Position numbers and translations under genes: made by a program. A stretch of 34,585 bases of DNA from a virus, in the IMG/VR virus record IMGVR_UViG_3300012036_000009, positions 1 through 34,585 of that record; one strand, 5' to 3'. The notes beneath the pieces are model-generated. The model did no database searches. It had not been told where the DNA came from and worked only from the letters and a program-made list of their open reading frames with translations. Each line of letters opens with the position of its first letter. The stretch's first letter is position 1. This document shows positions 10,222-34,141 of the stretch, piece by piece.

Positions 10222-13200
10222 ATGGCTACTCTTGCCCTTGGACTTGTAGGCACGGCGATTGGCGCTGGTATTGGCGGGGGTATCACCGTCCTTGGCGCCA
10301 CCCTGACTGCAGCGTCCATTGGCGGTTCGATCGGTGCCTTTGTTGGTGGTATGGTGGACAACATGATTATCGCCGCTCTCACGCCGGCGATCAGAAATGA
10401 GGGTCCTCGACTTCAAGAGATTACCGTGATGCAATCCACAGAGGGGGCCGTAGTGGGCCGTCTCTATGGTATCATGAGAGTTGGTGGCAACCTCATCTGG
10501 TCTTCCCGTTTCAAAGAAACCAAGGCTACTGAAACAGAGAAAGTTGGCGGTAAAGGCGGAGGTGGCGGCGGCGGCCAGAAGGTTGAAACCACTACCTACA
10601 CCTATACTGCATCCTTTGCCGTGGCCTTTGGTGAGGGCAATGGGCGTGTTCAGCTTGGGCGTCTCTGGATGGACGGCAAAGAGGTTGACTTGTCCCTCGT
10701 TTCCACCACATTCTACCAGGGCACTGAAACCCAGTCGCCTGACGCTGTTATTCAGGGCGTAGAAGGCGCTGGCAATACTCCCGGCTTCCGTGGCACAACC
10801 TACATTGTCTTTGAAGACTTTGTCCTAACAGACTATAGCAACCGTATCCCTCAGGTGACAGCCGAAATTATCTCGCCCATTGAAACGCCTGATCCCAATG
10901 ACATCTCCAACATTGGCCGTTCGTTCTGCTTGATCCCTGGCTCTGGCGAGTTCATTTATGGGACAGACGTCTATACTGTTCAGAACGCCTCCGACAACAT
11001 TTTGGGCAATTTCTTTCCCGGCAATTCGTTTACCAACCAAATCGGCGACAGCATTGGCCTGCCTTCGCGTGACGGGGACAAAATTCCAGCCAAATTCATG
11101 AATATGCACAACCAGCAGGGCAATACTGACTTCGTCCGCTCCATGACCCAGCTAGAACTGTTCCAACCTAATCTGGACGCAATCACGCTGGTGGTCGGCT
11201 GGTTTGGGGACGACCTCCGTATTGGCGAATGCGAAATTAAGCCCTACGTTGAGTTCAAAAACAGGAATGGCGTTGTCACTCCTCGCGAATGGAACGTTGA
11301 CGGCTTTGTCCGCTCTGACACGGCAATCCCTGAAGTGGGCCGAGACGACGAGGGCAGTCCCATCTATGGCGGCACACCCTCAGACGACGTTGTGGTTGAA
11401 GCCATTCGATGGCTGAAGGCACGTGGCCATAGGGTCGTGTTTTACCCCTTTGTGTTCATGCACGTTGAAGAGGGTAACACGCTGCCTGATCCGTATAGTG
11501 ACAACGCAGCCGATGTCGGTCAACCAGTCTTCCCCTGGCGCGGCAGGATCACCTGTAGCCCGGCGGCGGGCTTTGCCGGGTCAGTCGATAAGACTGCCGC
11601 CGCAGGCACACAGGTCACTGATTTCTTCACGAGAACTTGGGGCTTCAACCGCATGGTTGAGCACTATGCCCAGCTTTGCGACGATGCTGGCGGAGTTGAC
11701 GCATTCATTATTGGCACTGAGATGGTTGGCACAACGACCATCAGATCGGCTGCCGGAACCTATCCTGCGGTAAGCCGACTGAAGACCCTGGCGGCTACGG
11801 TCAAAGGTATCGTGGGCAGTGGAACCAAGGTGTCGTATGCTGCAGACTGGTCGGAATACCATTCTCATCGCCCGTCTGATGGCTCCAATGATGTATACTT
11901 CCATCTTGATCCACTTTGGGAAGACGCCAACATTGACTTCATTGGGATTGATAACTACCTGCCTGTCTCTGATTGGCGGGATGGTTCTTCGCATTTGGAC
12001 TATGACGCGGACAACGGGGTTGTAACTCCCCACAACATAGACTACCTTAAGTCAAATATCGAAGGCGGTGAACTTTACGACTGGTTCTATGCTAGTCCTG
12101 CTGATCGAGACAGCCAAACGCGCACGCCCATTATTGATAGCTCCGGCAAGCCCTGGGTATTCCGTCAGAAGGACATTCGCAACTGGTGGAGCAATGACCA
12201 TTACAACCGCCCTGGCGGAACAGAAAGTGGTTCTCCGACGGCATACACTCCAAGCACCAAACCCATTTGGTTCACAGAGTTTGGTTGTCCCTGTGTAGAC
12301 AAGGGCACAAACCAGCCCAACGTTTTCTACGATCCCAAGTCTTCTGAGAGCTTCTTCCCGCATTACTCCAACGGATTGCAGGATGAGTATATCTCGCGGG
12401 TCTACGCGGAAGCCATGCTCCAATACTGGCGTGACAACTCTCCTCCGGGTATGCTGGACATTGACAACATGTTCATCTGGTGCTGGGATGCTCGCCCTTA
12501 TCCAGACTACCCCAATCGTCTCGACGTCTGGAGTGACGGGGCGTTATGGCGTTACGGGCACTGGATGACAGGCCGAATTGCTTATCCAGCGCTCCCTCGC
12601 CTGGTTGAGCGGCTCTGTGCCGAAGTCGGCATAACGGACGTTGACACTGAGCGGCTGAACGGCACCCAAGGTCTTGTGAAAGGCTACTTTATCGATGGGC
12701 TTATGGCTCCTCGTGATGCCATTGCGTCTCTGATGACTGGCTTCCAATTCGATGCCTTTGAAAGCGAGGGCAAGGTTAAGTTTGCCCTCAAATCGACAAC
12801 CAGCCTCACTGCCCTGGTTACGGATGATTTTGTCTCCTCTGACAGTGACCCTCTTGGGTTCACGATTACCCGCACCCAAGACACGGAATTGCCCAAGAGC
12901 ATCATTGTGGACTTCATTGATGCGGACAACGACTATGAGGTCTCTTCGCTGGATGCCAAGCGCCACCAAACCACCAATAAGGAAGTGTCGTCCATTCGTC
13001 TGCCTCAGTCGCTGGCTCCGGACTATGTTAAAGGGCTTGCAGACAGTATCCTGCACCAAGCCTGGGTTGCTCGTGAGAGTGGTGCACTGAACTTGCCGCC
13101 TTCATTTTTCAGACTTGACCCAGGTGATGGCATTACGTTCCCGGTCGGCGATCGTGTGGGCCAAGCTCGTATCAGCTCCATTGATACTGGCGAGTTCCGC

Positions 13201-14283
13201 GAGTTGTCTTTCCAGTCGTTTGACCTCAGCCTGTATCAGCTGCCGGTCTATCCGCCACAAACCAAGTCTAGCATTGTTACTCAAGTGCCCGGCTTCCCTG
13301 AGCTTTACGTTCTGGACATTCCGCTCTATTCGGGTAATGAACCGTCTCACTGGTCGCCGAGGCTGGCAGCTTTTGCATCTCCCTGGCCTGGCACCGTTGC
13401 TGTCTACAAGGATGAGGACCCAACTGCCACGCAGGACTGGTTGCTTGCTCGCAGCTTGAACCTCGAAAATGTGATGGGCAACTTGGTGTCTGCAGTCGGC
13501 ACGGGCAAAACGGGCGTGTGGCTTAGGAACCAAACGATCACCGTAAGTCTGCTGGGCGGCACCTTGCCCTCTGAGGACAATGATGTTCGTATCCTCAATG
13601 GCGATCATATCTGTGCAATGCAGAATGATAGCGGGCACTGGGAATTGTTTCAATACAAGACGGCCACTCTCGATGGCAATGGGGACTATGTTCTGTCGGA
13701 CCTTATTCGTGGACAGCTTGGCACTGAATGGGTTATGCACGAGGATGGTTTTTCTGTTGGCAATCCTTTTGTCCTCCTGGAGAACCAGTTTTCCATCAAT
13801 CCGTCTTCGGCGCCTTACCTGCCTCTTACTGCTGGCGATCGTGATGTGCCCCATGACCTTCGGTTCGGCAGCGCCTACAAATCTGTGGACGATGATGCTG
13901 CCTACTTGGAAACCACCTTCACGCACGAAGCCATGGCCAAGAAGCCCTATGCTCCGGCCCAGCTGAAAGCCAAATGGAACCTGGACGTGGACAATGACAT
14001 TGCCATTAGCTGGTTCCGCCGCACTCGCTTTGATGGTGATCCGTGGGAACTGGCTAGCGTGCCCCTCAACGAAGAAGTTGAGGAGTATGAGCTTGAAATT
14101 CTCAACGGTTCGACCGTCGTTCGCGAGGTTACAGGCCTTGCAACGCCGGCGTATACTTACACTGACGCAATGCAGGTGACTGACTTTGGCTCCGCTCAGA
14201 CGACATCTATCAAGTATAGGGTCTACCAGATGAGCTCGGCTGTTGGGCGCGGCATTCCTGCAGAGGAGACGATTGTAAGATGA
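10222..14283 (+). CDS. tail tip/host specificity protein with GTA TIM-barrel domain
   Basis: 1353 residues, like the GTA gp15 megatron. It begins with a glycine-rich hydrophobic segment (about residues 1-50) and a bridging hub-like domain with a GGKGGGGGGG linker near residue 115. A GTA TIM-barrel-like domain spans about 300-770, recognisable by VDAFIIGTEMVGTT, VSYAADWSEYH and NIDFIGIDNYLPVSDW, with WFTEFGCPCVDKG later. A Phage-tail_3-like domain covers roughly 830-990 (YFIDGLMAPRDAIASLM). A C-terminal receptor-binding-like beta region ends with a fibronectin-like segment. It probably closes the tail tube and contacts the cell surface. The stop overlaps the next ATG. Confidence 0.93.
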   Translation: MATLALGLVGTAIGAGIGGGITVLGATLTAASIGGSIGAFVGGMVDNMIIAALTPAIRNEGPRLQEITVMQSTEGAVVGRLYGIMRVGGNLIWSSRFKETKATETEKVGGKGGGGGGGQKVETTTYTYTASFAVAFGEGNGRVQLGRLWMDGKEVDLSLVSTTFYQGTETQSPDAVIQGVEGAGNTPGFRGTTYIVFEDFVLTDYSNRIPQVTAEIISPIETPDPNDISNIGRSFCLIPGSGEFIYGTDVYTVQNASDNILGNFFPGNSFTNQIGDSIGLPSRDGDKIPAKFMNMHNQQGNTDFVRSMTQLELFQPNLDAITLVVGWFGDDLRIGECEIKPYVEFKNRNGVVTPREWNVDGFVRSDTAIPEVGRDDEGSPIYGGTPSDDVVVEAIRWLKARGHRVVFYPFVFMHVEEGNTLPDPYSDNAADVGQPVFPWRGRITCSPAAGFAGSVDKTAAAGTQVTDFFTRTWGFNRMVEHYAQLCDDAGGVDAFIIGTEMVGTTTIRSAAGTYPAVSRLKTLAATVKGIVGSGTKVSYAADWSEYHSHRPSDGSNDVYFHLDPLWEDANIDFIGIDNYLPVSDWRDGSSHLDYDADNGVVTPHNIDYLKSNIEGGELYDWFYASPADRDSQTRTPIIDSSGKPWVFRQKDIRNWWSNDHYNRPGGTESGSPTAYTPSTKPIWFTEFGCPCVDKGTNQPNVFYDPKSSESFFPHYSNGLQDEYISRVYAEAMLQYWRDNSPPGMLDIDNMFIWCWDARPYPDYPNRLDVWSDGALWRYGHWMTGRIAYPALPRLVERLCAEVGITDVDTERLNGTQGLVKGYFIDGLMAPRDAIASLMTGFQFDAFESEGKVKFALKSTTSLTALVTDDFVSSDSDPLGFTITRTQDTELPKSIIVDFIDADNDYEVSSLDAKRHQTTNKEVSSIRLPQSLAPDYVKGLADSILHQAWVARESGALNLPPSFFRLDPGDGITFPVGDRVGQARISSIDTGEFRELSFQSFDLSLYQLPVYPPQTKSSIVTQVPGFPELYVLDIPLYSGNEPSHWSPRLAAFASPWPGTVAVYKDEDPTATQDWLLARSLNLENVMGNLVSAVGTGKTGVWLRNQTITVSLLGGTLPSEDNDVRILNGDHICAMQNDSGHWELFQYKTATLDGNGDYVLSDLIRGQLGTEWVMHEDGFSVGNPFVLLENQFSINPSSAPYLPLTAGDRDVPHDLRFGSAYKSVDDDAAYLETTFTHEAMAKKPYAPAQLKAKWNLDVDNDIAISWFRRTRFDGDPWELASVPLNEEVEEYELEILNGSTVVREVTGLATPAYTYTDAMQVTDFGSAQTTSIKYRVYQMSSAVGRGIPAEETIVR

Positions 14284-17040: not shown

Positions 17041-19359
17041 TTAGCTGCACTTGCTGGAACCACAGTCCTTGCACACCTCGCAACCGCCTTCCTTCTTGAT
17101 ATTGAAGGACTGACAGTCTTTGCACTGGTAGCGCGGAGGCATAACTGCCTCAGGCCCATTGGCACCAGCCATATGAACTTGGACCTCAATTGGGCCGCCC
17201 GTGCGTTCTTGGTCGACGATGACTCCCTTGAAATCGCCATAGCCAATCTCAGTCATGTGGTCCGCCACGATATTCCCAATGGCTGCCAACAGAGACGGAA
17301 CATAACTTCCGCTCATCCAAGCACCACCCTTGGGATCGAAGACCTCGCGAAGCTCGCCAGCAACGAACGACACATTGCCTCCCCTACGGAACACGGCCGA
17401 GACCATGCGGGTCAGAGCAACAATCCACTGGTAGTGCTCCACGTTCTTGGAGTTGATGAATACCTCAAACGGGCGACGCTGTCCAGTCTTCATGTCCACC
17501 TTGTCAGTGAAGGTGATATAGAAGGCATGGGGCTCGTTTGGCCACTTCAGCTTGTAGGTTTCGCCAGTAAGGACTTTTGGCCGTTCTTCCTGCTGGCTGA
17601 TGCTGGTTGACCGTCCCGGCTCTTTGGTCACCTCGGGCTTCTTGACCTCCAAGATTGACCCGGTCACGTCATTGGGGCGGTAAGTCGTGCAGCCCTTACA
17701 ACCTAAACGATAGGCCTCTTCATAGACGTCGCGAAAGTCCTCGAAGTCAATATCCTTGGGGACGTTGATGGTCTTTGAGATGGAACTGTCAACCCAATGC
17801 TGAGCGGCCGCCTGCATACGGAGGTGAGCTTCAGGATTGAGTTCCTGTGCGTTGGTGAAATAGTCCGGAAGCTCTTCACCGGGATACATCTCCTGGTAAA
17901 GGGCAACGGCGTAGTCCACCACTTCCTCTTCCACTCGACTGCCATCCGCCTGTGTGACCTTGCGAGTGTAGCCATAGGCGAAGATAGGCTCAATACCCGA
18001 CGAGACGTTACCAGCATAGAGGCTGATTGTCCCGGTCGGCGCAATGGACGTCAGGAGGGCATTGCGAATACCATGCTCCCGAATGTCGTCTTGCATTTCA
18101 AGGGGAAGTCTTTCTGCCGCAAATGACCCTTTGAGCAGGAAGCCATCAGCATTGAAAAGCGGAAACGGGCCTTTCTCTTTGGCCAGTTCAATCGAAGCAG
18201 AGTAGGCTGACAGAGCGATTGCCTCCATCCACTCGTTGATTGTGGCGACCGCTTTGTCGGAGCCATACTTGATTTGGCACATCGCCAAGGCGTCTGCAAC
18301 GCCAGTCACACCGAGACCAATACGGCGTTTGGCGATGGCTTCCTCTTTCTGCTGAGGCACTGGGAATAGAGAAACGTCGACCACGTTATCCATCATCCGC
18401 ACGGCTGTCGCGACCAACTTGTCAAGGTGGTCGAGGTCCAGGAACGCTTGAGTGGTAAATGCCGCCGAGATGATGCGGGACAGATTGACTGATCCTAGCA
18501 GACATGCACCGTACGGTGGAAGGGGTTGTTCGCCGCAAGGATTGGTGGCTGAGATGGTTTCGCAGTATCCCAAGTTGTTGAGGTTGTTGATGCGATCGAT
18601 GAAGATAACGCCAGGCTCCGCAACTTCGTAGGTGGTGCGGATGATCTTGTTCCACAGGTCGCGAGCGTTGACAGTCTTTTCCATCAGCGTCTTGCCGTGC
18701 CAGTTGTCAAAGTAGAGACGCCAGTCCCCGCCAACGCGAACAGCTTCCATGAAGTCGTCGGTCACCAGCACTGAGAGGTTGAACATGCGGAGGCGAGCGC
18801 TATCCTTCTTGGCATTGATGAAGTCCTCAATGTCAGGGTGATTGCAACGCATGGTTGCCATCATAGCACCGCGCCGTTCGCCAGCGCTCATGACTGTCCG
18901 GCACATTGCATCCCACACGTCCATGAACGTCAGAGGTCCCGAGGCATCGGCTGCCACACCTTTCACCTCAGCGCCTTTCGGGCGGAGCGTGGAGAAGTCA
19001 TAGCCGATCCCACCACCTTGCTGCATGGTCAGAGCAGCTTCCCGCAGCATCGAGAAGATGCCGTCCATGCTGTCTGGGATAGTGCCCATGACATAGCAGT
19101 TGAATAGGGTAACTTGACGGCCGGTCCCGGCGCCTGCGGTGATGCGGCCAGCAGGAAGGTATTGATACTCGTCCAGGGCAAAGTAAAACTGGGAAAAGTA
19201 TTTAGCCACAACTTCAGGGTCGTCGCTTTCGACTTCTGCTAGGGCCTGCGCTATACGCGCCCAAGTATCATGAACTGAGATGTCGATTGGAGTTCCGTCC
19301 GCTTGCTTGAAGCGGTATTTCTTATCCCAGATTTGGGATGCAATTGCAGGATGTTCCAT
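17041..19359 (-). CDS. nrdJ: adenosylcobalamin-dependent ribonucleotide reductase, class II
   Basis: 772 residues. The start at 19359 is chosen over ATG 19371 because TGAGGA then sits seven bases upstream. The family signature is clear: Cys88 in FNCYVMGTIPDS and Cys275 in TNPCGEQPLPPYGACLLGS, where NPCGE holds the thiyl-radical cysteine. A C-terminal zinc-ribbon/redox tail carries paired cysteines (CKDC, CEVCKDCGSSKC). The enzyme reduces ribonucleotides to deoxyribonucleotides using coenzyme B12, without oxygen or a separate radical subunit. It supplies precursors for phage replication. It is the last leftward gene and is separated from upstream genes by a terminator-like hairpin, so it is probably transcribed separately or by read-through. 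Confidence 0.96.
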   Translation of the reverse strand: MEHPAIASQIWDKKYRFKQADGTPIDISVHDTWARIAQALAEVESDDPEVVAKYFSQFYFALDEYQYLPAGRITAGAGTGRQVTLFNCYVMGTIPDSMDGIFSMLREAALTMQQGGGIGYDFSTLRPKGAEVKGVAADASGPLTFMDVWDAMCRTVMSAGERRGAMMATMRCNHPDIEDFINAKKDSARLRMFNLSVLVTDDFMEAVRVGGDWRLYFDNWHGKTLMEKTVNARDLWNKIIRTTYEVAEPGVIFIDRINNLNNLGYCETISATNPCGEQPLPPYGACLLGSVNLSRIISAAFTTQAFLDLDHLDKLVATAVRMMDNVVDVSLFPVPQQKEEAIAKRRIGLGVTGVADALAMCQIKYGSDKAVATINEWMEAIALSAYSASIELAKEKGPFPLFNADGFLLKGSFAAERLPLEMQDDIREHGIRNALLTSIAPTGTISLYAGNVSSGIEPIFAYGYTRKVTQADGSRVEEEVVDYAVALYQEMYPGEELPDYFTNAQELNPEAHLRMQAAAQHWVDSSISKTINVPKDIDFEDFRDVYEEAYRLGCKGCTTYRPNDVTGSILEVKKPEVTKEPGRSTSISQQEERPKVLTGETYKLKWPNEPHAFYITFTDKVDMKTGQRRPFEVFINSKNVEHYQWIVALTRMVSAVFRRGGNVSFVAGELREVFDPKGGAWMSGSYVPSLLAAIGNIVADHMTEIGYGDFKGVIVDQERTGGPIEVQVHMAGANGPEAVMPPRYQCKDCQSFNIKKEGGCEVCKDCGSSKCS

Positions 19360-19411
19360 GGATTTCCTCATACTGTGGAGACGCTTAGACTAGCGCATAT
19401 CGTTAACAGGG

Positions 19412-20088: not shown

Positions 20089-20409
20089 TTATTCCTCAGG
20101 TTCGATCCAAATGTAATAGCCAACACCATCTGCCATACCAGAGATGCGGCGTTCAACAACTTTGCCCTTACGCCGGCGCTCATAACGGAGCAAGCCGTTT
20201 CGCACGCCCTGGTTGAGGTAAGCCCGGGCGCTCTCTTCAGAGACCCAGGCGTAAGGCAAGTTCCATGGGCGGGCAACATTCTTATACTTGGCCCGGACTT
20301 CGACCAACGTAGCCTCTCCATATAGCTTGACAATCCCACAAAGAATGTTATAGGTTGTGGCTTTCGCCTTCATCTCATCAGCTACCTTGGGAGTGACGGC
20401 GTTAGCCAT
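20089..20409 (-). CDS. hypothetical protein, possible winged-helix-like
   Basis: 106 residues. The first half is helical (ADEMKAKATTYNILCGIVKL, then ATLVEVRAKY). Then comes SEESARAYLNQGVRNGLLRY followed by basic strand sequence and a final GYYIWIEPEE. The order of helices, a recognition-like helix and a basic hairpin suggests a winged-helix fold, but this is inference and no family is recognised. The start overlaps the DenV-like gene by eight bases, implying coupled translation. Confidence 0.7.
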   Translation of the reverse strand: MANAVTPKVADEMKAKATTYNILCGIVKLYGEATLVEVRAKYKNVARPWNLPYAWVSEESARAYLNQGVRNGLLRYERRRKGKVVERRISGMADGVGYYIWIEPEE

Positions 20410-20785
20410 TCAGGCGCTCCTCAATTCGGGCCCGTGATATGGCCATGGCGCGTTCGTCAGGAGACCAGGAGTTATACCAGTCTTTTGGTATGCCAATATC
20501 GCGCAAGCTTTCAGGGTCAGTGTGTTTGGGCTGGTATCCACGGCTTAGCATCTCATCAACCAGCGCTCGCTGCCGTTGCACGAGATACTCCAGCTTGTCG
20601 CAGAAGAACTTCATATGCCCCGTGCTCATGCGATACGTCGGCGGAATTTTGGCTTGCGCAGGGGAAGTTACCCCGCGCTCAACCATACCGAGCACCATGC
20701 CAAAGATGCGAGGAAGCTCACGGTATTCGGCCACCAGGTGCTGCCGAGTAAGCTCAGAAGGCGGGATGCAGTTGATACGGGTCAT
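20402..20785 (-). CDS. denV: pyrimidine dimer DNA glycosylase/endonuclease V (T4 DenV-like)
   Basis: 127 residues, clearly homologous to T4 endonuclease V (138 residues). Matching segments are MTRINCIPPSELTRQHLVAE, YRELPRIFGMVLGMVERG, IPPTYRMSTGHMKFFCDKLE and ISRARIEERL. Thr2, which becomes the N-terminal nucleophile after Met removal, Arg3 and the catalytic Glu23 are all present. The enzyme removes cyclobutane pyrimidine dimers and nicks the abasic site. The aromatic C-terminal segment of T4 EndoV (around WYKYYGK) is missing, so dimer contact may differ. The start overlaps the upstream stop as ATGA. Confidence 0.92.
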   Translation of the reverse strand: MTRINCIPPSELTRQHLVAEYRELPRIFGMVLGMVERGVTSPAQAKIPPTYRMSTGHMKFFCDKLEYLVQRQRALVDEMLSRGYQPKHTDPESLRDIGIPKDWYNSWSPDERAMAISRARIEERLNG

Positions 20786-21500: not shown

Positions 21501-21529
21501 ATACTAAAGTGGATCCGCTGTTATGTCAA
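21501..21529 (-). promoter_or_regulatory. sigma70-like promoter with consensus -35
   Basis: Read leftward: TTGACA, 17 bases, TAGTAT, in an AT-rich setting. The -35 lies in the last codons of the HIRAN gene. The start point would be about 35 bases before ATG 21458. Confidence 0.6.
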
Positions 21530-21833
21530 CCCACGAAATGGAAATAGTTCCCCAGTTATTGTCTCTTTTCACTGCCCAAACGTGAAGCTGGTTGTTTTTC
21601 AGGGCTGCGGACACGGTGCCTGACCATTTGCGCGGGACATAGCCTAGATGGTAAGTCCGCGGTTTGCGCCGCCCGTATTGATAATCTTCAACCAGCACTT
21701 TGACCGCGTTAGGGTCATGCGGGTTAGAAGGCTCACGTTCCAAATGATAACGCTGGCCAACAGGAAGACCCGTGACAATCTCAGTCCCTTCTTCGCGGAA
21801 GGTAGCACCAGCTATGGCCGCATCAATTCTCAT
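21504..21833 (-). CDS. HIRAN domain protein
   Basis: 109 residues from ATG 21833, chosen because GGAGG lies upstream and the start overlaps the end of the nuclease gene; the longer frame from 21884 is not needed. The whole protein is one HIRAN domain: AAIAGATFREEGTEIVTGL, then VGQRYHLEREPSNPHDPNAV and HLGYVPRKWSGTVSAAL. HIRAN domains bind DNA ends, notably 3' single-stranded ends in HLTF-type helicases. Coupling with a PD-(D/E)XK nuclease gene suggests they act together in replication or repair. A second HIRAN gene lies at 31220. Confidence 0.85.
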   Translation of the reverse strand: MRIDAAIAGATFREEGTEIVTGLPVGQRYHLEREPSNPHDPNAVKVLVEDYQYGRRKPRTYHLGYVPRKWSGTVSAALKNNQLHVWAVKRDNNWGTISISWVDITADPL

Positions 21834-22287
21834 CCAGCCACCTCCAGGTGCACCCGATCCGCACGATGCGATCCAATGGATCATCAGGCAGACAGACTGA
21901 GCGCTCTACAAACCAGTCTTCCGGTTTGCCTTCCTCGGCAAGACCAGCGAGGTCACCAGAGATCAGGTATCGTGCCAAGTCCTTGCCGGAACCGACTTGA
22001 ACCAAAAGCCATGCAGAGCCTCGCACATTCCAGCGCTTTTTTAGCCAGCGAACTTGACCAGGGCGAACATGGACGGGAACCGGAGTTTCAAAGTGCACTG
22101 GTCGACTTGCCGTCTTCAACTCAAAGGTTGCCCCATAGCTGACTTTCTGCCAAAGCAGGGAAACCTCAACATCAGGGTAACTGTCTGAGACAGAGTTCTC
22201 AATGCGGGTATAGTGGACGTCGGCGCGGAAGACCCTCATAGCCTCCCGCATCCGGTTCCACAGGTTCTTCTCTGCAGTTTTAACCAT
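21823..22287 (-). CDS. PD-(D/E)XK nuclease, VRR-NUC/resolvase-like
   Basis: 154 residues from ATG 22287, which overlaps the end of the DHFR-like gene and has a GGGGG stretch upstream. The much longer frame to 22539 runs antisense-like through that gene and is rejected. Catalytic pattern: Glu30 in the first helix, Pro38-Asp39 in DSYPDVEVSL, Glu56-x-Lys58 in ATFELKTA, then VRPGQVRWLKKRWNVRG. This is the core of phage nucleases of the VRR-NUC/Holliday-junction-resolvase-like group. It probably processes branched or recombination intermediates. The HIRAN gene starts inside its last codons. Confidence 0.8.
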   Translation of the reverse strand: MVKTAEKNLWNRMREAMRVFRADVHYTRIENSVSDSYPDVEVSLLWQKVSYGATFELKTASRPVHFETPVPVHVRPGQVRWLKKRWNVRGSAWLLVQVGSGKDLARYLISGDLAGLAEEGKPEDWFVERSVCLPDDPLDRIVRIGCTWRWLDEN

Positions 22288-22843
22288 CGACTGCTGACCC
22301 CCGCTCATACACTTCGACCAGAAGATCTTCCAGAAGATCTTCCATCTTGACCTGCATAACCTGATCCCACCAAGCGCCTCGGCCCTTGGCATAGCGCCGG
22401 CGGGCAAAGTAGTCGGTGAGCTTGTCAGGGATACGCGTATCGACAGGCGGTTCTTCCATTGGCTCGGAAGCAAGGTGTTCTGGTCCAGCACTAACCAGCA
22501 TCGAAGACATGGCTCGACAGATATAGGCTTTGTCCACAAACCCGTTCTTCATTGCGTAAAGGGCAAGTTCTTGACCGCCTAGCAACCACGCGTCAGGGAA
22601 CATGGCGGCAAAGTCTTCCAGAGGCACTCCACGAGCCGGGTTGGTTGACAATCCATAGAGCTTGCCCCGTCCGGGAAGCTCTTTTGGCATATATTGCAAG
22701 GTCTTAGCCGATACGGCAAGAATGTCGCTCGTGCTTGTCAGCAGTTTGAACACCGCTTTGTCGATCGGTCCAGTCCAGGACATATCATCATCTTCGCCAG
22801 TGGCAACAAAGCCATTGCCACTGACTGCCATTATGAGTTTCAT
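22280..22843 (-). CDS. dihydrofolate reductase-like protein with C-terminal extension
   Basis: 187 residues. The first 115 resemble DHFR: KLIMAVSGNGFVATGEDDD, then MSWTGPIDKAVFK (compare the MPW...D substrate region). DILAVSAKTLQYMP and LPGRGKLYGLST follow, then the WLLGGQELALYAM glycine pair and VDKAYICR. DHFR regenerates tetrahydrofolate after thymidylate-synthase-type methyl transfer, which fits its place beside such an enzyme and dCMP deaminase. The last 60-70 residues are an acidic/basic helical extension of unknown role containing EDLLEDLL, encoded by an exact tandem repeat. Function is likely but not certain, because phage DHFR-like proteins vary. Confidence 0.78.
   Translation of the reverse strand: MKLIMAVSGNGFVATGEDDDMSWTGPIDKAVFKLLTSTSDILAVSAKTLQYMPKELPGRGKLYGLSTNPARGVPLEDFAAMFPDAWLLGGQELALYAMKNGFVDKAYICRAMSSMLVSAGPEHLASEPMEEPPVDTRIPDKLTDYFARRRYAKGRGAWWDQVMQVKMEDLLEDLLVEVYERGSAVDG
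22321..22344. repeat. tandem 12-base repeat, each unit a palindrome
   Basis: GAAGATCTTCCA occurs twice in succession. Each unit contains the perfect 10-base palindrome GAAGATCTTC. It encodes EDLLEDLL in the DHFR-like C-terminus. The array lies 34 bases upstream of the nuclease start, so it could also affect that mRNA region. Confidence 0.8.
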
Positions 22844-22844
22844 A

Positions 22845-23336
22845 TCAAGTGCTCCAAACCTGCACGCCCGACTTCAGCGGACCTGTTGTGTCAACAATGA
22901 GACCAGCCTCGCGCATGGTCTCACGGCCTTCCAGCTGCGATCGATGCCAGCTTGAGTCCCGCCGAGGCGGTCCGGTCACTGCTCGCTTGATGCCAGACCG
23001 CACAATAGCGTTGGAGCAATCATGACACGGGGCTTCCGTCACATAGATTGTCCAGCCTTCTACCGAGCAGCGGGCATTGAGGATAGCGTTGAGTTCCGCA
23101 TGGACCGTGTGATACATGCGGAACTCTGGGTCAGCAAGACGTTCAGGGTTGTCGTCGATACCCTGCGGAAAGCCAGCGTAACCGAGCGAGAACTGGTGAC
23201 GGTTCGGAGAGACAACGCAAGCGCCAACTCCCCGATCAACACCAGCGCCAAGGCCCTTTGTCCACGACCGAGCTTCCAGGGCCAGCCGCATGAAGCGGCT
23301 GTCCCATTTGTCCATGAAAGAGGACTGATCTTCCAT
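22845..23336 (-). CDS. dCMP deaminase
   Basis: 163 residues with the full zinc-dependent cytidine/deoxycytidylate deaminase signature. His79-Ala-Glu81 lies in YHTVHAELNAI, where His is a zinc ligand and Glu the proton shuttle. Cys104 and Cys107 lie in EAPCHDCSNAI. GAGVDRGVGACVVSPNRHQF and GYAGFPQGIDDN are typical of phage and bacterial dCMP deaminases. It converts dCMP to dUMP. The ATG overlaps the stop of the thymidylate-synthase-like gene, and the DHFR-like gene follows two bases later, so the three are one translational unit. Confidence 0.93.
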   Translation of the reverse strand: MEDQSSFMDKWDSRFMRLALEARSWTKGLGAGVDRGVGACVVSPNRHQFSLGYAGFPQGIDDNPERLADPEFRMYHTVHAELNAILNARCSVEGWTIYVTEAPCHDCSNAIVRSGIKRAVTGPPRRDSSWHRSQLEGRETMREAGLIVDTTGPLKSGVQVWST

Positions 23337-24238
23337 TATTCAATCACCTCCGGAATTGGATTGAATGGGTGCCGCGGAATGTTTTCCATGGCTTCAAGAT
23401 AAGCTTCCACAAAGCCGTCAGCTGGGTTGTGCCCATCAGTCATGTCGAGCCATATCCAGTCAACGATTTTTGGCTGGTCATAGATCGGTTCCTGCTGAAG
23501 CATTTCTTCTGCCATGTCATAGTGCACGGAGTAAAGATGTGGATGCGCCAGGGTGACGGTCATGGTGCCGAGGTCAACTTTGAGGGTGTGCGCCACGACA
23601 CCCATAACCATTGCATGACTGGCGACGTCGTAGGGCAATCCCACAAAGACATCCGACGAACGGATTGTCAGAGTGGAATGGAGTTTGCCGCCGACAACTG
23701 ACAGGGTGAAACCAAGCGGGCAAGGCGCGTTCTTTTGGTTGGGTGCGCCAAGGCCGTCATAGCTCGGGTCCCAATTCGAGACATACACCCGCCGGTCAGA
23801 CTTGTTGGTATAAAGCGCACCAAGTGCACTTGCCATTTGATCGCGCCCGAACTGGTGACGCCAGCGATAGCCGTAAGCAGCATAAATGGTTCGGCCGTCG
23901 TCTTCCACGAACTTGTTCCACAATGGTGCATATTTGCGGAGCCAATCGATGTCCCGCTTGCCATTGAAGAACCACGCCACTTCGGCCGCGGCCGATTTTA
24001 TATGAAACCGGCGCCACCCAGGCATCGGCACTTCACCATTTGACAGATCAAGCTTGAAAGACGTGGCGCCGAGGAGCGCCGAGACTTCCACGCCTGTCCG
24101 TTCATTCATCTCGACTGCTGTGTGCTCAGGACTTTTGTCCCAAAGCACTTCAACAAGATCAGAATAGACGTCGGCAAACTGGACAGCTGGCATCAAAATG
24201 GTATGCTGGCCCAAAGCCAGCGAGTTTGAAAAGCTCAT
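23336..24238 (-). CDS. thymidylate synthase family enzyme, predicted dCMP (hydroxy)methyltransferase
   Basis: 300 residues of the ThyA fold. Arg in NERTGVEVSALLG binds phosphate, Glu in AEVAWFFNG is the general acid/base, and Trp is kept in APLWNKF. AAYGYRWR, the paired Arg in SDRRVYVSNWD and Cys173 in NAPCPLGF (the nucleophile) follow. RSSDVFVGLPYDVASH and HPHLYSVH complete the site. Asp204 replaces the Asn of the ThyA motif RSxDxFLGLPFN. That Asn reads the uracil ring; Asp at this place is found in T4 dCMP hydroxymethylase (Asp179), and N229D in Lactobacillus casei ThyA gives a dCMP methylase. The substrate is therefore predicted to be dCMP. Whether the product is methyl or hydroxymethyl is open. 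Overlaps its neighbours on both sides. Confidence 0.9.
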   Translation of the reverse strand: MSFSNSLALGQHTILMPAVQFADVYSDLVEVLWDKSPEHTAVEMNERTGVEVSALLGATSFKLDLSNGEVPMPGWRRFHIKSAAAEVAWFFNGKRDIDWLRKYAPLWNKFVEDDGRTIYAAYGYRWRHQFGRDQMASALGALYTNKSDRRVYVSNWDPSYDGLGAPNQKNAPCPLGFTLSVVGGKLHSTLTIRSSDVFVGLPYDVASHAMVMGVVAHTLKVDLGTMTVTLAHPHLYSVHYDMAEEMLQQEPIYDQPKIVDWIWLDMTDGHNPADGFVEAYLEAMENIPRHPFNPIPEVIE

Positions 24239-25332
24239 TTTGTAATCCTTTCAAAGCCAAGGTTGGCCATCAGTTGGTGCACGTTGCGGTGCAGGTCTTC
24301 TTCAGTTCCGTTGTTGTCGATGATCCAGTTGGACATCCAGGGCTCGACAGTGCAGGAGCCATAAGCCTCGGGCTTGTGGCGCTCGCTGGCATCAACCCAA
24401 ATCACACCGTCGACGGCACCGGAGTTGGCAATGGCATAGTATTCCCGCTTGTTGCGGACGCCAACATAAATGTCATTCTCAGCGAAGATTTCCCGCGCAA
24501 GCCGTTCCTTCTCAGGATAGCAATAGGCGGCAATTAGGGAGAACCAAGCTGTGCGGAAATTGCTCCGGTCTTCAAAGCAGGCCTCCGCATCAGCATAGTG
24601 ACGGTTGAGCATCATGTCCAGCTCATCAGCAAGCTTATCTGCGGACATACCTGGGCTCCCGGCTTCAGTGTGCCGATCGACGGCGCCATGGGTATCCTGC
24701 AGTGCGGCCCAGATAACCTTCTCCGCGCAGAACAGTGAGGAGGACATGAACTGGAAGCCGTATTCCGCTTGGAGGATTTCCGCCACGGTGTCCTTGCCGT
24801 GCCGCGCATGACCGAGCACGAGCAACTTCGGCTTTCCAATGCTCACCGGCTCGTTCTGAGGCGTCTGTGTGGCTTCGGTAGCCTCTCGCTCAGAGAGTGC
24901 TGTTTCATACGCAGCACGCACCTGTCGGCGATCCAGAGCGAGATACGGAAGCAGGTTCGGAGGCTGCCATCCATCTGGCTTGATCGCATCAAAGCCCTTG
25001 GCATTCGGTCGCTTGGATAGCTCGCCACGAACCTTGGCCATATTGGCAGCATGGACTTCTTCGAATGCCGCCCCAGGAACGACGCCCATCTCGATCACGC
25101 GACCCAAAGCAAAGTATACAAGGTCCAACAGAGCGTCGACTTCATCTTCCAGCTCGGCGGCGTCCATGAACTCGGTAAGCTCTTCAGACAAGGCGCCACT
25201 GGCCCACTTCTTGCGCTCAGGATCGAGACGGCTCGGTTGCTCGGGGATTGGTAGCCCGATAATATCTTGGTTGAACTGGAGGACAAGATCGAGATACTTC
25301 TCCATCCAAGTTGCTGTGGTTTTAAGTTCCAT
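24235..25332 (-). CDS. fusion: MazG-like NTP pyrophosphatase and P-loop dNMP kinase
   Basis: 365 residues, GAGGAG upstream. Residues 1-125 are an all-alpha NTP pyrophosphatase: LSEELTEF (Glu50, Glu51, Glu54), then LEDEVDALLDLVYFALG with Asp66 and Asp70 (EExxE and ExxD motifs), then FEEVHAANMAKV and KPDGWQPPNL. Residues about 165-365 are a nucleoside monophosphate kinase with the P-loop GHARHGKDT (Lys180), YVGVRNKREYYAI and IDNNGTEEDLHRNV. One chain would thus hydrolyse a dNTP to dNMP and phosphorylate a dNMP. In T4 these steps are separate proteins (gp56 dCTPase, gp1 kinase) around dCMP hydroxymethylase. Coupling to the enzyme with Asp204 supports a modified-dCMP role; substrates are inferred. 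Confidence 0.85.
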   Translation of the reverse strand: MELKTTATWMEKYLDLVLQFNQDIIGLPIPEQPSRLDPERKKWASGALSEELTEFMDAAELEDEVDALLDLVYFALGRVIEMGVVPGAAFEEVHAANMAKVRGELSKRPNAKGFDAIKPDGWQPPNLLPYLALDRRQVRAAYETALSEREATEATQTPQNEPVSIGKPKLLVLGHARHGKDTVAEILQAEYGFQFMSSSLFCAEKVIWAALQDTHGAVDRHTEAGSPGMSADKLADELDMMLNRHYADAEACFEDRSNFRTAWFSLIAAYCYPEKERLAREIFAENDIYVGVRNKREYYAIANSGAVDGVIWVDASERHKPEAYGSCTVEPWMSNWIIDNNGTEEDLHRNVHQLMANLGFERITK

Positions 25333-31219: not shown

Positions 31220-31945
31220 TCACTCAACGAAGTAATTCCGGAAGGACCCCTCGATGACAACCGCAGGATTGCGTTCTTGACCAGGATGCCCCACAAGACG
31301 ACCCTCGCCGACCAAGAGACGGCCTTGATAACGGGGCCACACCTTAGCCAGTTCCTTCGCTTGACCACGCGGGATATATCCAACGTGCGTCCAGATAAAG
31401 GAACTTTGCGATATCCCCTTAGCCACAAGAACGGCCATGGCATAATGGTCTTTTGGGTTCCCAGGTTCCGGCACGAAGAGCACGCGGTTACCGGGGTTCT
31501 TGTTCCTGAACGCCGACTGCTGGGCTCTGTCCATATAGCTGTTGCCAACAACCGTTGACTTGAGCGGAAACATCTTAGCCGGACTGTCCTTTTCAAAACC
31601 GCCAAAGTTGGCAAGATCATCGTCGGTGACGTGCATCTCGATTTCGGCGGGTGCATTGAACTCATGCGTATCAAAGGAACCGGCACCTTGGGTCGTCAGA
31701 GGCTTCAGATAATCCCAGGTCTTGGCCGCAAGGACTTCATCACCCTTAAGGATCGCCGCCAATCCGTCAGCACAGTTGGGAGTGCTCTTTATGGTGGCTT
31801 TGCGGGTAACAGGCAGACAGTCGGGACAGGGCACGATGCCTGCCGTAGGTCCACCACCAAGACGCTCGTATACTTCACCAGTGTCTTGGCAAGTCTCACA
31901 GGTAACGCTCGGTTGGTCTTCCTCCCAAAAGTGCGGGAAAACCAA
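31220..31945 (-). CDS. zinc-binding plus HIRAN domain protein
   Basis: 241 residues from TTG 31945, with GAAAGG a few bases upstream. The N-terminus has a DnaJ-like zinc site (Cys16 and Cys19 in CETC, Cys40 and Cys43 in CPDC). The middle (about 55-125) is unrecognised. The C-terminal about 110 residues form a HIRAN domain: KSTVVGNSYMDRAQQSAFRN, then LFVPEPGNPKDHYAMAVLVA and THVGYIPRGQAKELAKVW. HIRAN binds DNA ends; the zinc site may add DNA or protein binding. With the nuclease-linked HIRAN gene at 21504 it gives two HIRAN proteins in one genome. It is the last gene before the structured region upstream of the polymerase. Confidence 0.78.
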   Translation of the reverse strand: MVFPHFWEEDQPSVTCETCQDTGEVYERLGGGPTAGIVPCPDCLPVTRKATIKSTPNCADGLAAILKGDEVLAAKTWDYLKPLTTQGAGSFDTHEFNAPAEIEMHVTDDDLANFGGFEKDSPAKMFPLKSTVVGNSYMDRAQQSAFRNKNPGNRVLFVPEPGNPKDHYAMAVLVAKGISQSSFIWTHVGYIPRGQAKELAKVWPRYQGRLLVGEGRLVGHPGQERNPAVVIEGSFRNYFVE

Positions 31946-33311: not shown

Positions 33312-33354
33312 TTGGTGTCTCCTTGACTACCTAGATACTTGACACTTTGAATGA

Positions 33355-33467: not shown

Positions 33468-33502
33468 AACATTACCCCGAACTTAGTCGGCGGGGAAATG
33501 TT
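33468..33502 (-). terminator. hairpin after the HNH gene
   Basis: AACATT and CCCCG arms, separated by an A-A mismatch, pair with CGGGG and AATGTT around an 11-base loop. The arms begin within the HNH stop codon. Only a weak ATTAAAT follows leftward, so termination is plausible but not certain. Confidence 0.5.
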
Positions 33503-33978
33503 TACTTAGGTGGCTGGCGCCGGTATACGTCGAAATTCTGTTTAGCCCTATTTCTAGCTTTTACAGCTTGGCCAAAACATTTATGAAACCCAAGCTGGTA
33601 TTGCTTAGTTTCAAATCTTAGCGATATTTTCCAGCGCTTCACTCCTTTCATCCAATTTACACCACCAAAGCCCCGGTTTTGCTGATTTTGAGACTTTGTA
33701 GCCTCCCGCAAATTTGTCCAAACGTTATTATCCCTAGTTCGGTCTTTATGGTCCACGTCTAATACAGGCCACGATCCCGTCATATACAGCCAAGCAAGCC
33801 TATGCGCTAAATAGCCTTTGCCCTTAATGACTATAGTTCTGTACCCATCAGGCTTAACTGATCCAGCCTCTTTACCCTGGACAGCCGTATGAACTTTTTC
33901 ACCAAAGAGCCATTGGAAGGCACCCGTGGCGGGGTCATAGGTTAAAAGCTCCTTAAGACTTCTTTGATCTATACACAT
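33502..33978 (-). CDS. HNH endonuclease, probably homing-type
   Basis: 158 residues from ATG 33978; a TTG at 33996 is possible. The pattern LTYDPATGAFQWLF, then GYLAHRLAWLYMTGSWP and VLDVDHKDRTRDNNVWTNLR, then ATKSQNQQNRG, is the HNH_3 core found in free-standing phage HNH endonucleases. The His of HRLAW and the DHKDxxxxNN segment are the metal-site residues. A C-terminal AP2-like part (KGVKRWKISLRFETKQYQLG and FHKCFGQAVKARNRAK) would bind DNA. The gene is visibly AT-richer than its neighbours, and its start overlaps the previous gene, consistent with an inserted selfish gene. Confidence 0.85.
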   Translation of the reverse strand: MCIDQRSLKELLTYDPATGAFQWLFGEKVHTAVQGKEAGSVKPDGYRTIVIKGKGYLAHRLAWLYMTGSWPVLDVDHKDRTRDNNVWTNLREATKSQNQQNRGFGGVNWMKGVKRWKISLRFETKQYQLGFHKCFGQAVKARNRAKQNFDVYRRQPPK

Positions 33979-34141
33979 CTTGGATAACTTTCTCAAGGGC
34001 AGCTGACTGAAGATAGGCTTCGCCGACCAACAGAGCGATTGCTCTCATCTTAAGGGGGTCCTGGTCAGGACAAGCCTCTTCTACTTTTGCTTGCACTGTC
34101 TTTGCCAATGCAAGCAGCTCTGCTGGATCACCGCTCGCCAT
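33953..34141 (-). CDS. hypothetical protein, 62 residues
   Basis: A small helical acidic protein (MASGDPAELLALAKTVQAKV, then DPLKMRAIALLVGEAYLQSA). No family is recognised. The start overlaps the upstream gene by 14 bases and the end overlaps the HNH gene by 26 bases. The overlap suggests that the HNH gene arrived at its 3' end and may have replaced part of it. Confidence 0.6.
   Translation of the reverse strand: MASGDPAELLALAKTVQAKVEEACPDQDPLKMRAIALLVGEAYLQSAALEKVIQDVYRSKKS

Follow-up and report, generated by a model that had tools for sequence, protein, structure and literature searches.

In phage Xp12, a member of the genus Bosavirus (PMC11946847), cytosine was found by LC-MS to be 100% 5-methylcytosine (PMC7653180). 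Cells infected with Xp12 contain a deoxycytidylate (dCMP) methyltransferase that uses tetrahydrofolate (PMC8543423), and a deaminase of the phage converts 5-methyl-dCTP to dTTP (PMC12088426). In thymidylate synthase (TS) itself, Liu and Santi (1992, as cited in PMC8670742) are credited with turning ThyA of L. casei into a dCMP methylase by an Asn-to-Asp change, and a metagenomic selection has linked the corresponding N177D to phage contigs with modified DNA (PMC8670742). Other members of the family hydroxymethylate their substrate, and these carry a two-part signature: an acidic residue (Asp or Glu) at the third position ahead of the catalytic Cys (Cys-3), which activates the attacking water, and a Ser or Thr at the second position ahead of the active-site Tyr. 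The dCMP hydroxymethylase (dCH) of T4 yields no 5-hydroxymethyl-dCMP when mutated to D145N, and it is without the tail with which ThyA closes at its C-terminus (PMC6400193).

The window analysed here is a virus fragment of 34,585 bases. It is a roseophage-type siphovirus, with ~82% DNA identity to Roseobacter phage RDJL3 in its right part and ~80% in its left part, the tail module. The known dCMP methyltransferase type of Xp12, and the known link between N177D and modified phage DNA, are extended here to marine roseophages, since the product of a minus-strand gene of the window is most probably an Xp12-type dCMP methyltransferase, predicted from its residues, its modelled structure and its relatives to make 5-methyl-dCMP. 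This reading rests on the TS fold, the catalytic residues, Asp204, Asn170, the C-terminal tail and a clade to which Bosavirus, the Xp12 genus, also belongs. The relevant features are as follows.

22280..22843, minus strand: dihydrofolate reductase (DHFR) homologue (phrog_13578, E 2.4e-34; weak PDB DHFR match, E 3e-4)
22845..23336, minus strand: member of the Zn-dependent deoxycytidylate deaminase family (PF00383, phrog_174, clade alignment)
23313..24245, minus strand: stretch over the TS gene in which DNA similarity to RDJL3 and IMG/VR loci L045 and L059 is lost (dc-megablast gaps at the gene ends)
23336..24238, minus strand: gene for a TS-family protein of 300 aa, predicted to be a dCMP methyltransferase (5-methyl-dCMP synthase) (PF00303; tree clade D; model)
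23339..23362, minus strand: C-terminal tail NPIPEVIE, ThyA-like and putatively cofactor-closing (clade conservation; model aligned to E. coli TS residue 264)
23627..23629, minus strand: codon GAC of Asp204, base-selecting, in the column of ThyA Asn177 and T4 dCH Asp179 (alignment)
23720..23722, minus strand: codon TGC of the catalytic Cys173 (alignment)
23729..23731, minus strand: codon AAC of Asn170, at Cys-3, where hydroxymethylases have Asp and ThyA has Leu (alignment; PMC6400193)
24235..25332, minus strand: fusion of a MazG-like (DR2231-type) pyrophosphohydrolase and a P-loop nucleoside-monophosphate-kinase fold (PF01503, DR2231 profile match, weak phrog_139)

The TS-family gene and its active site

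The open reading frame at 23336-24238 has 300 codons and an ATG start, and it overlaps the upstream gene by 4 bases and the downstream deaminase gene by 1 base. Its product matches the Pfam family Thymidylat_synt (PF00303) with 146.8 bits (E 8.5e-43; cut-off 24.3), and its AlphaFold model (pLDDT 92) superposes on closed E. coli TS with a Z of 30.3 and an rmsd of 2.0 over 256 aligned residues. This alignment extends as far as residue 300 of the model and the final residue (264) of the E. coli enzyme. The original prediction had placed Asp204, in the motif GLPYDVAS, at the base-selecting Asn of ThyA with the remaining catalytic residues kept, and both points are borne out; in a 17-member alignment Asp204 (GAC) shares its column with Asn177 of E. 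coli ThyA and Asp179 of T4 gp42, and Cys173, Glu86 (ThyA Glu58), Arg193 (R166), Asp196 (D169), His234 and Tyr236 are all retained. The alignment also revealed further active-site changes relative to ThyA, namely L143 to Asn170, H147 to Pro174 and W83 to Phe.

Relatives were gathered by tblastn of phage records and by an alignment-based scan of IMG/VR, and 50 dereplicated relatives were counted, with the reference sets read in the same alignment. At the ThyA-177 column, Asp occurs in 50/50 members of the clade and in all 34 T4-like dCMP hydroxymethylases, while Asn occurs in 64/64 ThyA and 5/5 dUMP hydroxymethylases. Given this invariance in the clade, Asp204 is no chance substitution. At Cys-3, Asn is found in 48 of the 50 clade members, including the window, as against Leu in every ThyA (64/64) and Asp in every hydroxymethylase of either base type (39/39). 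Pro stands in place of ThyA His147 throughout the Asp-type clade. Two residues before the active-site Tyr, the window has Ala and the clade varies among A, T, S, G and N, whereas Ser is found in 34/34 T4-like enzymes. Finally, the tail PEVIE is conserved across the Asp-type clade, although its sequence stops a few residues short of the ThyA tail.

Read as a pair (177/Cys-3), these columns give Asn/Leu for enzymes making dTMP, Asn/Asp for hmdUMP, Asp/Asp for hmdCMP and Asp/Asn for the clade of the window, a putative two-residue rule by which the four products known from TS-family enzymes (T, hmU, hmC and mC) can be told apart. A dUMP hydroxymethylase, which needs Asn at 177 and Asp at Cys-3, was considered and rejected; the window has the reverse. 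The role of the Asn at Cys-3, which differs from the Leu of ThyA, is putative. Nonetheless, this Asn, the retained tail, and a sister lineage that combines Asp and Asn with a ThyA-type end (see below) together favour hydride transfer, and hence a methyl product, as the predicted last step of the reaction.

Relatives, tree position and allele exchange

The Asp-type clade takes in Bosavirus and Pamexvirus phages of Xanthomonas, Stenotrophomonas and Pseudomonas, as well as the Janthinobacterium phage Donnerlittchen, RDJL1, RDJL2, RDJL3, the Ruegeria phage Tedan, the Rhodobacter phage RcRudolph and the Achromobacter phage JWX. A single-sequence search of viral_contigs returned no relative, but an alignment search of the same collection did; no relatives of SPO1 gp29 were found there. 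The Xp12 protein is represented in the alignment and tree by its genus mates AXL1, DLP4, DoCa6 and DoCa10, which fall in the same TS clade as the window protein. The published Xp12 reverse qPCR primer (PMC8670742) matches exactly in all four, and the forward primer has no match in viral_contigs. The original prediction of a cytosine nucleotide as substrate is thus supported by the Asp column and by kin that include Bosavirus.

The original prediction had also proposed a ThyA-family tree as a check. In the free tree, the clade and a sister lineage adjoin ThyA, apart from the T4 hydroxymethylases, with support of 98/92 for the two together (D plus D2) and 89/70 for the clade itself (D). A shared origin of the Asp with T4 dCMP hydroxymethylase was also tested. 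In an AU test on a smaller set, both groupings stood, the one joining the clade to the T4-like enzymes (p 0.35) and the one joining it to ThyA (p 0.40), and convergence is therefore not claimed; the Asp may have arisen once or twice, both being compatible with the test. The sister lineage consists of three IMG/VR loci (L068, L069 and L070) whose TS proteins carry Asp at position 177 and Trp at position 83 and end in VAI, as in ThyA. Two of these, L068 and L070, possess Asp and Asn at the two columns together with the VAI tail; their loci have a MazG-like gene, and a nearby deaminase or DHFR was sought and not found. It may be that this lineage is an early-branching dCMP methylase.

Annotation of the TS genes as thymidylate synthase in most relatives, together with ThyA being the closest branch of the tree, could be taken to mean that the enzyme is a normal thymidylate synthase which, in spite of its Asp, works mainly on dUMP. 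This is extremely unlikely, as the same Asn-to-Asp change is reported to make L. casei ThyA methylate dCMP (Liu and Santi 1992, as cited in PMC8670742), the Asp and the replacement of His147 by Pro hold throughout the clade, and the genus of Xp12 lies within it. An enzyme of the Xp12 kind is the better fit to these observations. For the Bradleyvirinae examined (Bosavirus, PaMx74 and Donnerlittchen) and for AAT-1, the residues likewise argue against the name given in a 2025 family-wide study, where TS homologues of the Mesyanzhinovviridae were called deoxyuridylate hydroxymethyltransferases (PMC11946847).

Within the window, the TS gene stands apart from its surroundings. On either side of 23313-24245 the DNA resembles that of RDJL3, L045 and L059 without a break, and the flanking proteins are roughly 70-93% identical to theirs, but the TS proteins share only 36-45% identity. 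The tree places the window TS beside those of IMG/VR loci L020 and L021, and that of RDJL3 with the RDJL1 type. The sequences indicate that the TS gene alone was exchanged for a diverged allele, one Asp-type gene replacing another with the Asp kept. Such a swap fits selection for a cytosine-acting function, perhaps with different kinetics.

Several other genes of the window were also identified. These include, on the minus strand, an adenosylcobalamin-dependent class II ribonucleotide reductase (17041-19371; TIGR02504), a pyrimidine-dimer DNA glycosylase of the T4 endonuclease V kind (20402-20785; PF03013) and two HIRAN-type genes, one 84% identical to an RDJL3 gene annotated HIRAN (21504-21884) and one matching the Pfam family (31220-31945). 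A tail protein with a gene-transfer-agent TIM-barrel domain (PF13547) is encoded on the plus strand at 10222-14283. An HNH endonuclease gene (33502-33996, minus strand; PF13392), possibly a homing endonuclease, looks inserted, as similarity to RDJL3 DNA ends at 33328 and restarts at 33999.

Operon neighbours and the proposed pathway

Genes of nucleotide metabolism surround the TS gene in the window and in its relatives. Among 51 IMG/VR loci, a MazG-like gene is present in 48/51, a deaminase in 46/51 and DHFR in 37/51, and 22 have a MazG-fused kinase-like domain. In the window, the model of the fusion protein (24235..25332) matches DR2231 with a Z of 10.8 and T4 dNMP kinase (1dek) with a Z of 11.5, the latter tied with other P-loop kinases; no identity for the kinase domain was obtained from sequence alone, so its assignment rests on the model. 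To judge from these folds, the fusion protein likely removes dCTP and dUTP, and modified dCMP is the putative substrate of its kinase domain. The 'Cof hydrolase' annotation that it bears in RDJL phages was considered and is not supported by the domain evidence.

A kinase similar in fold to T4 dNMP kinase, fused to the upstream protein, would also be at home beside a dCMP hydroxymethylase of the T4 kind, in which water adds to the methylene intermediate to give 5-hydroxymethyl-dCMP and then 5hmC DNA, possibly further decorated. The same Asp is found in T4 gp42, and the AU test allows union with the T4-like enzymes. Such an enzyme is unlikely here, as the window has Asn170 and Ala in place of the published signature (PMC6400193) and keeps its C-terminal tail. 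Moreover, ten related genomes possess neither a carbamoyltransferase of the 5hmC kind nor a T4 beta-glucosyltransferase (with T4 as positive control), and no sugar transferase or other known 5hmC-decorating enzyme was found among 33 RDJL3 proteins scanned with Pfam, most of them hypothetical or vaguely annotated. Other modifying genes may lie outside the 34.6 kb fragment.

The DHFR homologue (22280..22843) is 87% identical to an RDJL3 gene annotated DHFR, and its match to Pfam DHFR_1 is under that family's cut-off. The original prediction had argued from this gene that methyl transfer, which consumes reduced folate, was a real possibility. Taken alone the argument is weak, because T4 encodes both DHFR and a hydroxymethylase, but it gains force because the Asp-type enzyme is the sole TS-family member in the ten genomes tested. 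Each of these related genomes has exactly one TS gene (10/10), and ThyX was found in none of them. The operon DHFR is best explained by dihydrofolate arising from the Asp-type enzyme, there being no second TS in the phage. The case for a methyl product is thus stronger than first proposed, through the Asn at Cys-3, the kept tail and the single TS.

The deaminase (22845..23336) is possibly a 5-methyl-dCTP/dCMP deaminase giving thymidine nucleotides, by analogy with Xp12. Its motif reads GYAG in the window, GFAG in RDJL3 and GYSG in RDJL1 and Tedan, and Bosavirus keeps GYNG; the allosteric motif of dCMP deaminases is G(Y/W)N(A/G) (PMC12088426). The change of motif in the roseophage deaminases suggests that control by dCTP and dTTP has been lost.

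With a deaminase adjoining the TS gene in most loci, ten genomes that lack both ThyX and a further TS, and an Xp12 deaminase that makes dTTP from 5-methyl-dCTP (PMC12088426), it is conceivable that 5-methyl-dCMP serves thymidine supply only, being wholly deaminated so that DNA cytosine stays unmodified. This is very unlikely, since Xp12 does both and yet has 100% 5-methylcytosine (PMC7653180), the pyrophosphohydrolase fits dCTP removal, and DNA of AXL1 resists nearly all tested enzymes with G or C in their sites (PMC9206674). Thymidine supply is likely an addition to methylation of DNA cytosine, not a replacement for it.

In the pathway proposed for the Xp12-kind enzyme, Asp204 would bind the cytosine edge of dCMP, Cys173 would attack C6, and the methylene of methylene-tetrahydrofolate would be moved to C5, after which the folate would donate a hydride to give 5-methyl-dCMP and dihydrofolate, the latter being recycled by the adjacent DHFR. 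Drawing down dCTP (and dUTP) would fall to the MazG-like domain, and the kinase domain would assist in forming 5-methyl-dCTP, which the phage polymerase would incorporate instead of dCTP and the deaminase would in part turn into dTTP, by analogy with Xp12. Most or all of the cytosine in virion DNA would then be 5-methylcytosine, and the DNA would resist many restriction enzymes. As a more tentative proposal, which we hold to be plausible but short of probable, a lineage of marine roseophages could derive both its 5-methylcytosine and all its thymine from dCMP, through one TS-family enzyme and a 5-methyl-dCTP/dCMP deaminase freed from dCTP/dTTP control (GYAG for GYNG), with no need for a dUMP-to-dTMP step.

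Implications and comparison with known systems

By analogy with Xp12, cytosine is probably methylated in the DNA of the window phage and of the relatives in culture, which would protect that DNA against restriction by the host. DNA in which 5-methylcytosine replaces cytosine is predicted for RDJL1, RDJL2, RDJL3, Tedan and the Rhodobacter phages, which is directly testable with cultured phages. Full-text literature searches found no roseophage with a measured modified cytosine, and no purified enzyme of the Asp-type clade for which both sequence and product have been reported. In the paper on AXL1, the mechanism of the suspected modification is listed as unknown (PMC9206674), and the Asp-type TS gene is the obvious candidate for it. 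Modified DNA would also affect sequencing, restriction and defence tests with RDJL-type and related phages.

Among known systems, the dUMP hydroxymethylases of SPO1 (gp29) and Pseudomonas phage M6 are likewise phage TS homologues engaged in pre-replicative base modification, but they carry Asn at 177 and Asp at Cys-3, and identity to the SPO1 protein is 17%. T4 gp42 (19% identity) shares the TS fold, the catalytic Cys and Glu and the cytosine-selecting Asp, but differs in its Cys-3 Asp, its Ser two residues before the Tyr, its Thr after the Cys and its want of a C-terminal tail. E. coli ThyA (28% identity) is alike in fold (Z 30), tail, catalytic residues and nearest tree branch, but its Asn177, Leu143, His147 and Trp83 are Asp, Asn, Pro and Phe in the window. 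The dCMP methyltransferase of Xp12, compared through its genus mates AXL1, DLP4, DoCa6 and DoCa10, belongs to the same clade at 44-49% identity, with the same Asp/Asn/Pro residue set and C-terminal tail, and the gene order pyrophosphohydrolase-TS-deaminase-DHFR is shared. The window differs from the Xp12 kind in belonging to a marine alphaproteobacterial phage lineage, in the separate subclade that its TS forms with L020 and L021, in the kinase-fold domain attached to its pyrophosphohydrolase, for which the Bosavirus gene shows no counterpart, and in a deaminase without the Asn of the GYNG allosteric motif.
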